A stretch of DNA of 64,000 nucleotides from Candidatus Zixiibacteriota bacterium (GTDB taxonomy: Bacteria > Zixibacteria > MSB-5A5 > UBA10806), in NCBI GenBank assembly GCA_024641335.1, contig JAHEDG010000013.1, positions 1 to 64,000 on the forward strand, written 5' to 3'. Under the pieces are notes generated by a model. It was given only the letters and a program-made list of their open reading frames with translations. It made no database searches and was not told where the DNA came from. Made by a program: the position numbers and the translations under genes. The stretch's first letter is position 1; each line of letters opens with the position of its first letter. Shown in pieces: positions 43,470 to 54,109 of the stretch.

Positions 43470-44554
43470 AATTCGGGATAATAGGTCTGTCGCAGTCCGG
43501 CAAGACCACTGTTTTCAACGCCCTTTCGGGGGCACACGCGGCTGTCGGCGATTATTCGACGTCGAAAGCGGCCAATATCGCCGTGGTCAAAGTCCCGGAT
43601 AAACGTCTCGACAGGCTGGTCGAGATATTCAAGCCGAAAAAGATCACCCACGCCGAGATCGAGTATATCGATATCGCCGGCATGAGCGCCGGCGCTTCGT
43701 CCGATAAGAAAAAGGAAGCGGCCTACGTCAAATCTATCCGCGAAACTGACGCTCTCATACAGATAGTGCGCTGTTTCGAGAATCAGAACGTGCCTCATCC
43801 CGAGGGCTCGGTCGATCCTGGGCGGGATATCACGGAGACCGATTCGGAATTGATCCTGGCCGACCTTATGGTTATCGAGAACCGTCTGGCCAAACTCGAG
43901 CACAATATCAAGGTTGTCAAGCGGGATAGAGAGGAAGCCGAATTCCGGCTGCTCAGCAGGTTACGTGAGACTCTGGAAGCCGAGAAACCGTTGCGAACAC
44001 TGGATCTGACTGCCGACGATCTCAAGATGATCGGCTCATTCGGATTCTTGACTATAAAACCGATGCTTTATGTCTTGAATCTCGGTGAGGATCAATTGCC
44101 TGACCGGGCCAAATGGGAGGCTGATTTTATTGATCTCACGAATACGGCCAAAAGCGGCCTGACCAGCATCTCCGGCTCGCTGCAGATGGATATCGCCAAC
44201 CTGGATCAATCTGAGCGGGCGGATTTCATGAAGGAGCTGGGGATCGAGAGCTCCGCCTCTGATATCATCATTCAGAAATCGTTCGAGATAATCGGGATGA
44301 TAGCCTTTCTGACCGGCGGGGAGCCGGAGGTTCATTCCTGGCCGATCCGCAAGGGGACGACCGCCCAGGAAGCGGCGGGGACGATCCACAGCGATATACA
44401 ACGGGGATTCATCAAGGCCGAGACAGTGTCTTTCGACGATCTGGATCGCCTGGGAAGCTGGCCCAAGGCCCGGGAGACCGGCAAGCTCCATCTCAACGGC
44501 AAAGCGTATGTCGTACAGGACGGCGACGTGATCTTGTTTATGTTCAATGTGTAG
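43463..44554 (+). CDS. ychF: YchF/OLA1-type GTPase/ATPase with TGS domain
   Basis: The 363-residue protein has the G1 loop GLSQSGKTTVFNAL and the G3 region IEYIDIAGM. The nucleotide-specificity segment is LNLGED in place of NKxD, as in YchF, which prefers ATP. A coiled-coil insert follows (VIENRLAKLEHNIKVVKRDR), and the C-terminal TGS domain ends DGDVILFMFNV. YchF associates with ribosomes and oxidative-stress control. The Walker-A form (SQSGKT) differs from the common NVGKST, which is a mild oddity. Confidence 0.92.
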   Translation: MLKFGIIGLSQSGKTTVFNALSGAHAAVGDYSTSKAANIAVVKVPDKRLDRLVEIFKPKKITHAEIEYIDIAGMSAGASSDKKKEAAYVKSIRETDALIQIVRCFENQNVPHPEGSVDPGRDITETDSELILADLMVIENRLAKLEHNIKVVKRDREEAEFRLLSRLRETLEAEKPLRTLDLTADDLKMIGSFGFLTIKPMLYVLNLGEDQLPDRAKWEADFIDLTNTAKSGLTSISGSLQMDIANLDQSERADFMKELGIESSASDIIIQKSFEIIGMIAFLTGGEPEVHSWPIRKGTTAQEAAGTIHSDIQRGFIKAETVSFDDLDRLGSWPKARETGKLHLNGKAYVVQDGDVILFMFNV

Positions 44555-44674
44555 ATGATTGCTACACAATTAGTTGTATTGCCATAAGTATAGAATTCCC
44601 GGAATTAGGCGAATTTTCCGCTTGATTTTAGCGAATAATAATGACAAAAAACTACGAGAAATGTCAAAAAGTGC

Positions 44675-44703
44675 TTGACAAGACTGAACATTTGTGCAAT
44701 TTT
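44675..44703 (+). promoter_or_regulatory. Possible promoter of the HD-YwgA cassette
   Basis: A perfect -35 TTGACA lies at 44675-44680. Seventeen bases later there is only an A/T-rich -10 candidate (AATTTT). The site is 17 bp ahead of the HD gene, so transcription would start at or near the start codon. It is a weak prediction. Confidence 0.3.
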
Positions 44704-44719
44704 GACGATGTAAGAAAAG

Positions 44720-46129
44720 ATGGCAAAAGAAACTAAAGTGTTCATGGACCCGGTTCACGGGCTTATAACTTTCGATAAGGAACGCGAAAGGGTACTATTG
44801 GAATTAATAGACACGCCCGAATTTCAAAGGCTTAGGCGGATTAGGCAATTGGGAGTTTCTTATGTGACTTTCCCAAGTGCAGTACATACTCGTTTTTCTC
44901 ATTCATTAGGGGTTTGCCATCTCGCAGGAATATATATGGATAAGCTTTTTGAAACTTATGGGGATAAATTTTTCAAAAAGAGCGATTTCGAAAGGGCGCG
45001 CTTGTTAGTTCGTACAGCGGCATTATTACATGATATCGGTCATGGTCCTTTCTCTCATGTATTTGAAAAGGCATTGGGGAATGGTGTTAAGCATGAAGAA
45101 TGGAGTTCAAAAATCGTTAGCACTGATACAACATATGTGAATCAGATCTTGGCAAAATATGAATCTGAAAACGGGATTTCGGCGACTGATATCACATTAA
45201 TGATTGAAAAGACATATAAGGATGGAAAGCTAGTCAAAATCCTCTCTGGTCAATCTGATATAGATAGAATGGACTATATTCAGCGTGACAGCCTTTTCAC
45301 CGGAGTGAAATATGGGCATATTGATCAAGACTGGTTAATTCATTCTCTTAGGCTTACTGAATACAAATCATCTGGCGAACAAATAATTGCAATCGACGCT
45401 TCAAAAGGTACAAATTCTATTGAGAGTTTTGTCTTGGCAAGATTAAATTTATTTCAAACGGTCTATTATCATCATAAAACACGTTCGGCCGAAGTTCAAT
45501 TATCAAAAATATTATGTAGGATGGCTGAATTGATAAAGACCGAATACTTCGATCCCAATCATGAAGCGCTTTGTAAATTTGTATCAACAGGGTCGAAGAA
45601 TGCAGCGATTGCTGATTATCTTGCTCTTGATGATTTTTCGATTTTATCAGTTATTAATATGATTCAAAATAATGTGGATGATAAAATACTAGAAAACCTA
45701 TGCAAACGCTTTGTGAATCATAAAATTTTTAAGAGCGTCGATATTCCTGATGACAGAATTATCGATAATATCGCAGATTTTGAAAATAAATTCGATGAAA
45801 AAGGCTTAATAAGCAATACTAATGAATTCGATAGGAAAGACGATCTTAAATATTATCGCGGTATCGACGAAGCGGGAATTACTTATTATAAGAGTAATCT
45901 TTCGAAAGAAGGCTTTGGTGACGAAATTTTGGTAATTATGAAATCAGGTGAATTGCGCAAGCTTTCTCTACATTCGGGTATAATTGAGGCAATCGCAGAG
46001 CCTCCTGAGGATATTCAACTTCATGACGAAAAAACGAAAGGCAACATTAAAAGGCAACGAGTAAGAATTTGCTTTGACGAAAATATATTTGATAGGTGTA
46101 AGCTTGAAAGCATTGTACAGGGAGGTTAG
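44720..46129 (+). CDS. HD-domain phosphohydrolase (YwfO/SAMHD1-like)
   Basis: The 469-residue protein starts MAKETKVFMDPVHGLITF. HD-domain metal ligands are His56 (VHTRFSHS), His104-Asp105 (LLHDIGHGPFSHV) and Asp182 in SDIDRMDYIQRDS, as in SAMHD1 and B. subtilis YwfO. These enzymes hydrolyse nucleotides, often dNTPs. The gene is about 37 percent GC in the sampled stretch against about 50 percent around it, which suggests recent acquisition. The YwgA-like gene starts 1 nt after its stop, inside the same transcript. Function in stress or phage response is possible but not shown. Confidence 0.88.
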   Translation: MAKETKVFMDPVHGLITFDKERERVLLELIDTPEFQRLRRIRQLGVSYVTFPSAVHTRFSHSLGVCHLAGIYMDKLFETYGDKFFKKSDFERARLLVRTAALLHDIGHGPFSHVFEKALGNGVKHEEWSSKIVSTDTTYVNQILAKYESENGISATDITLMIEKTYKDGKLVKILSGQSDIDRMDYIQRDSLFTGVKYGHIDQDWLIHSLRLTEYKSSGEQIIAIDASKGTNSIESFVLARLNLFQTVYYHHKTRSAEVQLSKILCRMAELIKTEYFDPNHEALCKFVSTGSKNAAIADYLALDDFSILSVINMIQNNVDDKILENLCKRFVNHKIFKSVDIPDDRIIDNIADFENKFDEKGLISNTNEFDRKDDLKYYRGIDEAGITYYKSNLSKEGFGDEILVIMKSGELRKLSLHSGIIEAIAEPPEDIQLHDEKTKGNIKRQRVRICFDENIFDRCKLESIVQGG

Positions 46130-46130
46130 C

Positions 46131-46646
46131 ATGATAGAGGATTATTTGAGAATTTTGAAGATTATTGATACTGTTGGAGAACTGAAATCAAGAAAGAAAA
46201 TACAGAAGATTGTTTATCTATTGCAACAAAAAGGATTACCTTTTAATGAAAATTTCAGCCTTCACCATTATGGTCCATACAGCCCTGAGTTGCAAATTGA
46301 AATTGATCGCCTTACGGATGGGGGATTAATTAAACAAGAGTCTATAGATGATTCATATGTCTTTCAGATTGAGGAAAAAGGTACATCCTTCCTTCGAGAT
46401 AAAGAGCTGCTTATTCAGCAGTTAACCATAAATAAAGTTCCTGACTTAATCGAAGATCTCAATAGTATTGAACCAAGCTATATTTTGGAGATGATGGCTA
46501 CCATCGTTTACTTTGAAAAAAGCTATGGAAAAAACAAAGATAGATTAAAAGAAGTATTAGGTGAAGTAAAACCGAAATTGATCAGCCATTTCGATAAAGC
46601 CTGGGAAAATCTCGATAAGCTTAATCTTCATAGTGGTAAACGATAA
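46131..46646 (+). CDS. YwgA-like small protein coupled to the HD phosphohydrolase
   Basis: The ATG at 46131 follows GGGAGG by 5 nt, 1 nt past the HD stop. The 171-residue product begins MIEDYLRILKIIDTVGELKS and continues KKIQKIVYLLQQKGLPFNE and HHYGPYSPEL, the hallmark of YwgA proteins and distantly of the Panacea (DUF4065) antitoxin-like fold. In B. subtilis ywgA lies beside the HD gene ywfO, so the pairing is conserved across phyla. Like its partner it is AT-rich. It could be a regulator or adaptor for the HD enzyme. Confidence 0.82.
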   Translation: MIEDYLRILKIIDTVGELKSRKKIQKIVYLLQQKGLPFNENFSLHHYGPYSPELQIEIDRLTDGGLIKQESIDDSYVFQIEEKGTSFLRDKELLIQQLTINKVPDLIEDLNSIEPSYILEMMATIVYFEKSYGKNKDRLKEVLGEVKPKLISHFDKAWENLDKLNLHSGKR

Positions 46647-46771
46647 CGATTAAGGCTGCTTTCCGCGGTAATTCACAGGTCAATTGTCGGCATATATTCC
46701 CCCGCCATCCCTCCCCGATTTCCTTTGCCATCCTCGACCATATATACAATATTAGAGCTGACGAGGTCAGT

Positions 46772-47077
46772 ATGATAAATGAAGGCAAATACCGTTTCCG
46801 CGCGTTCACCCTGGAAATCAAATCCCGGCCCATCCCCAAAAGTTTTCTAGTGATTTTCTCTGGCGGCATGGATGTCGACGGGAGCGGCTGGGAATCGTCG
46901 GCCGGAGACCGCAAGAGACTCGAGGATGATTTCAAGTTTATCTGGAACCCTTTTGACGCTCCGTCGAATAAGAAAGGGGAGTATATGGTCAAATTCTCCT
47001 CGGATGAGAAGCTAAAGAAATTCGGCGATTGGCTCGATAAACAGATTAAGGACTACGGAGGATTGAAGGAGGATTGA
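46772..47077 (+). CDS. Small hypothetical protein (101 aa)
   Basis: GAGG lies 5 nt before the ATG. The 101-residue product is soluble, acidic-basic balanced (MINEGKYRFRAFTLEIKSRP) and ends DWLDKQIKDYGGLKED. No motif is recognised. Codon use returns to the pattern of the flanking housekeeping genes, so it is not part of the AT-rich cassette. It could be real or a chance frame; the ribosome site favours the former. Confidence 0.5.
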   Translation: MINEGKYRFRAFTLEIKSRPIPKSFLVIFSGGMDVDGSGWESSAGDRKRLEDDFKFIWNPFDAPSNKKGEYMVKFSSDEKLKKFGDWLDKQIKDYGGLKED

Positions 47078-53620: not shown

Positions 53621-54109
53621 TTACCAAAGAGCCAATCGATCGATTTTGATAATTCCCTGTTTTCCGGTTTTATAATATTCCGCGCTGGAACATTCCCAAT
53701 CTTCCGGGTTTTCAACTAACCCCGCCTTCACCGGATTATTATGAATATAGTTCAACTTTACAGCAAAAGTTTTCTCCGAAATGATATAAAGATCATCGAA
53801 ACGATGTTGCCAAAACTTCTGAATTTTAACATTCCGACTGTTAAAATATTCAAACACTATTCTCTTTTTAAGATCCCTGACAAAGAAACTTATATTTTTT
53901 TCTTCCTGAATCGATACCAATAGATGCATATGGTTTGGCATTACAACATAGCCATGAACTTTCGCGTTATCTCTTATCCTGTAGAATTCCATATTTGTTA
54001 GAACGATTTCGTAATCCTCTTTTTTCTTAAAGCGGAGAACATGATTATAGGTGGAAGTGGTTATAAAAAAAGTACCGTGGTTTTGCAAACTTCTATACCT
54101 AAGAGGCAT
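53621..54109 (-). CDS. REP-associated tyrosine transposase (RAYT, Y1_Tnp / TnpA-REP)
   Basis: The 162-residue HUH-type protein starts PLRYRSLQNHGTFFITTST and has the HxH metal motif at His60-His62 (VMPNHMHLLVSI). The nucleophilic Tyr is at or near residue 121 (LNYIHNNPVKAGLVENPEDW), the standard C-terminal RAYT signature. RAYTs cut and rejoin single-stranded DNA at REP hairpins and are thought to spread them. Length and motifs are complete, so it may be active. It is flanked on both sides by hairpin arrays, as RAYT genes usually are. Confidence 0.95.
   Translation of the reverse strand: MPLRYRSLQNHGTFFITTSTYNHVLRFKKKEDYEIVLTNMEFYRIRDNAKVHGYVVMPNHMHLLVSIQEEKNISFFVRDLKKRIVFEYFNSRNVKIQKFWQHRFDDLYIISEKTFAVKLNYIHNNPVKAGLVENPEDWECSSAEYYKTGKQGIIKIDRLALW

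Follow-up and report, generated by a model that had tools for sequence, protein, structure and literature searches.

The window analysed here, a 64,000-nucleotide (nt) stretch of contig JAHEDG010000013.1 from a Candidatus Zixiibacteriota bacterium, carries a two-gene cassette in which an HD-domain gene (44720–46129, + strand; 469 residues) is followed by a YwgA-like gene (46131–46646, + strand; 171 residues). The first encodes a protein like the deoxynucleoside triphosphate (dNTP) triphosphohydrolases (dNTPases) of the EF1143/YwfO/SAMHD1 type, and the second a standalone homologue of the C-terminal, DarT-binding domain of DarG. We propose, with moderate confidence, that HD-YwgA is a mobile effector-inhibitor module of the toxin-antitoxin kind, in which the YwgA-like protein would be the inhibitor and would bind and restrain its effector, the HD dNTPase, as the DarG domain restrains DarT. 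The analogy suggests that the cassette could be a restrained antiviral or stress switch. The pairing, its acquisition, the co-divergence of the two proteins, the catalytic residues and the predicted fold of the partner are established in the sections below. The components are known and their combination is new: we found no description of a dNTPase paired with a standalone DarG-type inhibitor domain in the literature searched, nor any functional study of YwgA (searched alone, with ywfO and with DarG).

The partner is predicted to be a standalone DarG C-terminal domain

No Pfam family matched the YwgA-like protein of the window. DarG models recovered it at 1.6e-13 (PADLOC) and 1.5e-11 (NCBIfam NF048014), and in both cases it aligned only to the C-terminal part of DarG (positions 175–303 and 175–315, respectively). 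Its score of 44 bits was below the DarG cut-off of 250, and the N-terminal DNA ADP-ribosylglycohydrolase macrodomain is absent. All 14 of the first-aligned YwgA-like proteins matched the PADLOC DarG model. A profile search of the PDB found 7yk3_B at 3.2e-7; 7yk3 is a DarG domain in complex with DarT. The predicted model of the partner (predicted local distance difference test, pLDDT, 95.5; predicted template-modelling score, pTM, 0.90) had this same structure as its sole full-length match (Foldseek 4e-5, TM 0.70), superposing on 7yk3_D over 163 residues at 3.5 Å with a Z of 15.7, and the remaining matches listed span the N-terminal winged helix. Because the profile models, the PDB profile and the predicted fold agree, we take the partner to be a DarG C-terminal domain (CTD), the part that blocks DarT by direct binding. 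An excerpt of PMC11481870, citing Deep et al. 2023, states that this domain, as a mimic of single-stranded DNA (ssDNA), covers the active site of DarT.

The likeness to DarTG thus extends over nearly the full length of the DarT-binding domain, whereas the window pair has neither macrodomain nor DarT. No DarT was found beside the partner gene in the window, where the HD gene stands upstream and encodes a dNTPase, not an ADP-ribosyltransferase. With this identity for the partner, the case for a regulated effector is stronger than it was from the sequence-only reading, which had recognized the two genes and noted the ywfO-ywgA pairing of Bacillus.

The HD protein keeps the catalytic residues of SAMHD1-type dNTPases

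The HD protein matched Pfam HD (2.1e-12) and HD_assoc_2, both above cut-off. A phmmer search of the PDB aligned residues 6–426 of its 469 with 2o6i at 1e-52, an HD protein of E. faecalis that we take to be EF1143; BT4208, an Aquifex protein and SAMHD1 were the next matches. The predicted model superposes on 2o6i over 396 residues with a Z of 38.6 (mean pLDDT 75.5, with residues 365–400 and 427–469 poorly predicted). Eight residues are invariant in 13/13 aligned HD proteins, as expected from the claim that SAMHD1-type metal ligands are kept: H61 (codon 44900–44902, + strand), presumably the metal-ligand histidine of the HD superfamily; H104 and D105, the HD pair (45029–45034, +); H108, H113 and E116; H125 (45092–45094, +), which we assume to be the counterpart of the SAMHD1 catalytic histidine; and D182 (45263–45265, +), presumably the fourth metal ligand. 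By sequence the protein appears to belong, over its full length and with no catalytic residue lost, to the EF1143/SAMHD1-type dNTPases, and it would be expected to hydrolyse dNTPs. It shares with EF1143, YwfO and SAMHD1 the full-length sequence and fold, the HD ligands and the catalytic histidine, and differs in that its gene is paired with a DarG-CTD-like partner.

The resemblance to anti-phage dGTPases (PADLOC dGTPase, NF041026) is confined to membership of the HD superfamily and a local match around the HD motif, which spans only ~95 residues of the window protein and scores 30.1 bits against a curated cut-off of 400.

HD and YwgA are paired and diverge together

A single-sequence search found the partner in 14/132 Zixibacteria genomes. 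Fourteen of the 15 YwgA-like places there, the window included, adjoin an HD gene, and the fifteenth is a DarG. Starting from the HD side with profiles, we found an adjacent YwgA-like open reading frame (ORF) at 22/29 Zixibacteria HD loci, with the HD gene first in 17 pairs and YwgA first in 5. Since 5/22 pairs have the reversed gene order, adjacency outlives rearrangement. With the window counted, the pair is present in at least 21 of the 132 genomes.

The ywfO-ywgA pairing is real beyond this phylum. Scanning genome contigs for the best 80 of 145 relatives, we observed HD→YwgA adjacency at 78 loci, and the other two are both truncated at a contig edge, where tblastn picked up HD traces. In a Bacillota phylum sample a second profile matched 67/398 genomes, and HD was adjacent in 27/30 loci fetched; in a Bacillota class sample, 9/97 genomes matched, with HD adjacent at 3/9 loci and three longer, DarG-sized frames. 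In the phylum to which the archaeon Nitrosocosmicus belongs, 69/250 genomes matched and 10/30 loci examined had an adjacent HD gene. One archaeal genome (G283) had seven YwgA-like matches, two of them on one contig.

The HD tree and the partner tree, each built from 34 proteins, showed the same main clades and mixed Zixibacteria, archaea and Bacillota, with several placements long-branched and unsure. The distances within the two families were correlated, with a Mantel r of 0.88 over all 34 pairs, 0.74 over the 24 accessory pairs and 0.79 over the 13 from Zixibacteria, and 0/10,000 permutations gave as high a value. As in type II toxin-antitoxin systems, the pair thus consists of two adjacent, co-inherited genes with operon-like spacing. 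By these sequence comparisons the two genes travel together across Zixibacteria, Bacillota and archaea, and adjacency in several samples together with co-divergence bears out the earlier description of YwgA as a dedicated partner.

The cassette was probably gained in the lineage of the window

The gene order at the locus is ychF, HD gene, YwgA-like gene, small gene, lon. In all four relatives searched (the family sample comprised five genomes, the window genome and these four), ychF, the small gene and lon are contiguous with no pair between them. The interval from ychF to the small gene measures 2217 bp in the window (44555–46771, + strand) and ~92–128 bp in the relatives. No match to the YwgA-like protein was found in any of the four relatives, one of which carries a divergent HD protein at another place. 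The small gene itself (46772–47077, +) is 66–70% identical in the four relatives and has no Pfam match.

The low G+C (GC) content noted from sequence was confirmed: among 621 sliding 1924-bp stretches in the window none is lower than the cassette, at 35.6%, and those not overlapping it average 49.0% (sd 2.3%). GC at third codon positions (GC3) is 31% in the HD gene and in the YwgA-like gene alike, and 51–71% in 11 of 12 neighbouring genes measured; the exception is a transposase (38%). Because the site is empty in 4/4 relatives and GC3 is low, we regard the acquisition as recent, and gain in the lineage of the window is the simplest reading, in agreement with the sequence-only proposal of an acquired cassette. 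Of the extent given there (44675–46646) the end stood; 44675 adds only the leader of the HD gene, whose ORF starts at 44720. The partner does start 1 nt after the HD gene, with its ATG at 46131. A GGAGG at 46121–46125 (+ strand), recognized by sequence reading, overlaps the end of the HD gene and is a candidate ribosome-binding site, from which translation of the YwgA-like gene may be coupled to that of the HD gene.

A transposon or integrase boundary was considered and rejected: in 44540–46780 we detected neither clear terminal repeats nor a clear target duplication, and the short imperfect repeat pairs there are such as chance would produce. When intergenic DNA from the relatives was aligned locally with the window flanks, no score exceeded those of shuffled sequences. 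An IS200-like (Y1_Tnp) transposase gene (53621–54109, − strand) lies in another stretch of low GC (35%), 7 kb downstream of the cassette.

Proposed mechanism

We infer the binding, the inhibition, the trigger and the biological role of the pair as follows. By homology, the active HD enzyme would be an allosteric dNTPase of the EF1143/SAMHD1 kind that strips the triphosphate from dNTPs, so that DNA synthesis is starved. The YwgA-like protein, presumably made just after the enzyme by coupled translation, is predicted to combine a winged helix with a helical bundle, as does the DarG domain that blocks DarT, and would bind the HD enzyme and hold it in a low-activity state. The simplest route would be for YwgA to occupy or block the polynucleotide or allosteric nucleotide sites that are needed for tetramer formation. 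An allosteric nucleotide/oligonucleotide site is a plausible contact because oligonucleotides compete with activators at the allosteric sites of SAMHD1, whose dNTPase activity is inhibited when their concentration is high (excerpt of PMC7854603). Release could be cued by phage DNA synthesis, raised dNTPs, ssDNA or the loss of a labile partner.

A dNTPase restrained by its partner has a precedent in Clover, whose operon likewise joins one gene for an HD dNTPase with one for a regulatory partner, and in which CloA is toxic without working CloB (excerpts of PMC12265719). By the description given there, CloB is a nucleotidyltransferase that makes p3diT, whereas the YwgA of the window has a winged helix and matched no enzyme family. 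We found no CloB-type nucleotidyltransferase in the window pair, the sole full-length structural match of its second protein being the DarG domain. The entry 9mr6, considered as CloA, was set aside: its title names a fungal SAMHD1. If the partner restrains the enzyme, the pair would be a protein-controlled counterpart of the nucleotide-controlled Clover. In this way ywgA gains a testable function, and the fields of dNTPase immunity and DarTG become linked through a shared partner domain.

Defence context of accessory copies

Some copies lie in or beside known defence genes. In one locus the pair stands between brxC and pglX on the same strand, with brxHI further on, as part of a BREX region (L211). 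It follows a JetC3-like gene in L212 and JetC- and JetD-like genes in L285, a Wadjet-like arrangement in which JetC2 and JetD2 were assigned by reading the ORFs. In L061 the pair is beside a ZorD/DpdE-like helicase, and in L209 an orphan YwgA lies near IetA/IetS-type genes and, by eye, a look-alike of a transposase fragment. On the viral contig IMGVR_UViG_3300010428_000064 (L268:345–4845) the pair is upstream of HNH-like, small-terminase-like and large terminase genes and appears from these neighbours to be a phage-borne copy. Another viral contig opens with a YwgA-like gene (L237:1–528), so placed that any HD gene would be past the contig end. At L250:2–1962 a shortened YwgA-like ORF directly follows a look-alike of a large serine recombinase, as though the insertion of an element had interrupted ywgA.

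Named defence systems were thus found near ~5 of the 50 accessory stretches fetched (14 from Zixibacteria, window included, plus 16 and 20 others) and on one viral contig. The Zixibacteria neighbours gave methyltransferases and generic matches only. At a PADLOC limit of 1e-15, we counted 70 families in 111 Zixibacteria neighbour proteins and 96 in 107 other neighbour proteins vs 54 in 135 control proteins, from control stretches that were partly short or missing; a further neighbour set of 120 proteins gave 20 families at the stricter 1e-30. Among the matches listed, generic kinases, methyltransferases and mad3 were present in the control stretches too. These counts show no clean excess over the controls. 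Given the generic families in controls, the partial controls and the differing PADLOC limits, enrichment in defence islands is unproven, and we used the named cases only. An anti-phage role, raised earlier from context, is possible: a few copies sit within BREX or next to Wadjet-like or phage terminase genes, but the PADLOC scans do not add to this.

The window YwgA had three matches in plasmid records, namely a Priestia HD-YwgA pair, a 349-residue cyanobacterial protein and a Mesorhizobium macro-domain DarG beside a DUF4433/DarT-type gene, and none in phage records. The BREX-type YwgA matched neither plasmid nor phage records; of two further relatives, one had no match in them and the other matched one plasmid macro-domain protein.

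Alternative explanations

Several observations weigh against restraint of an effector by its partner. Seven of the 29 Zixibacteria HD loci have no partner; one of these seven is truncated where its contig stops, and several encode longer, divergent HD proteins. The mean net charge is −3.0 for YwgA and −7.8 for HD, with a correlation of 0.17 over 34 pairs. Since YwgA is not acidic against a basic HD, simple ssDNA mimicry by bulk charge, as considered for YwgA, is unsupported. Residues 1–102 of the partner, the winged helix, resemble PadR/MarR regulators (Z up to 11.2 over 89 residues), and R21, K22, K23 and K26 are invariant in alignment A4. This is what one would expect if YwgA were a DNA-binding regulator, either a repressor of the operon or a DNA tether for the HD enzyme, and not a direct inhibitor, an explanation that we consider improbable: the only full-length structural match works by toxin binding, YwgA is the second gene in most pairs, unlike typical leading autorepressors, and K26 may be structural because it is invariant also in the more divergent alignment A1.

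The distribution in Bacillaceae is the other point to be weighed. The pair is found in every searched genome of one family (43/43, with two matches containing stop codons) and is scattered in Zixibacteria, other Bacillota and archaea. Around the Bacillaceae copies, at least three neighbours are conserved at 71/80 loci, and the mean GC difference is −0.015 over 78 pairs. Core, vertically inherited pairs near host GC, an outcome that by its own terms would tell against the sequence-only reading, are what Bacillaceae have; in Zixibacteria the copies are sporadic and all 13/13 pairs tested have lower GC than their locus. The core, syntenic copies argue against a defence-only role and suit a housekeeping operon for dNTP pools or nucleotide cleaning, in which HD would trim excess or damaged dNTPs with YwgA as an accessory or sensor subunit and the Zixibacteria copies would be ordinary transfers with no part in defence. 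Excerpts of two papers fit this, one suggesting that a YwfO-like protein cleans modified nucleotides (PMC4993169) and one listing ywfO among genes that co-evolve with polC (PMC3814617). We judge it unlikely, given the patchy occurrence in Zixibacteria, the acquisition in the window, the phage-borne and BREX copies and a partner that belongs to an antitoxin-type domain family. The reading that the pair serves every accessory lineage as a dedicated defence against phages, acting through dNTP depletion, is compatible with an effector-inhibitor module and somewhat less probable than that module: the BREX, JetC/JetD-like, ZorD/DpdE-like, IetAS and terminase contexts speak for it, and the small number of such contexts, the generic Zixibacteria neighbours and the many PADLOC matches in control stretches against it. 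On our proposal of a restrained dNTPase, domestication for the core control of dNTPs is the probable history of the Bacillaceae pair.

Other partners of the YwgA-like domain

At archaeal loci with no HD gene, DUF3368/PIN-type proteins closely follow the YwgA-like gene in three cases (L166, L182 and L185). The PIN-type assignment in L185 is by homology, and that in L182 has DUF3368 above and PIN_12 below cut-off, with nothing found in a PDB search. In archaeal L180 and L181, the gene after the YwgA-like one belongs to a family in which a D...ExK-like stretch was seen by eye; a PDB search with this neighbour found nothing for the PD-(D/E)xK reading. In L195, from the Bacillota sample, DarT precedes DarG. 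The neighbours in L250 and L251 resemble a recombinase and a hydrolase by eye and were not counted as toxins.

These cases suggest that the YwgA-like domain may be re-used with different effectors, as is Panacea/SocA of PanAT, a single antitoxin domain that has toxins of many types as partners (excerpt of PMC8832971). Homology between the two is not established, no dedicated profile comparison having been made: the Panacea/SocA family PF13274 matched 1/14 YwgA-like proteins weakly (E 0.053) and did not match the window protein. Tentatively, and by this analogy, YwgA/DarG-CTD could be an antitoxin domain that swaps its partners, a second fold of the Panacea kind, joined to dNTPases, DarT-type DNA ADP-ribosyltransferases and nucleases in bacteria and archaea. 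HD-YwgA would then be a dNTP-depleting toxin-antitoxin family of BREX/Wadjet islands and phages, tamed as a core pair in Bacillaceae.

A helical-looking protein family stands beside the YwgA-like gene in archaeal L172 and L179 and the related L173. The best viral fold matches of YwgA in BFVD were A8TKI0, A0A2H4RBN9 and A0A3Q8Q497 (E 3.6e-4 to 2.1e-3), all Sulfolobus virus proteins (SSV4, ellipsoid virus 1, polyhedral virus 2) that, to go by the predicted fold, are possible viral antitoxin mimics.
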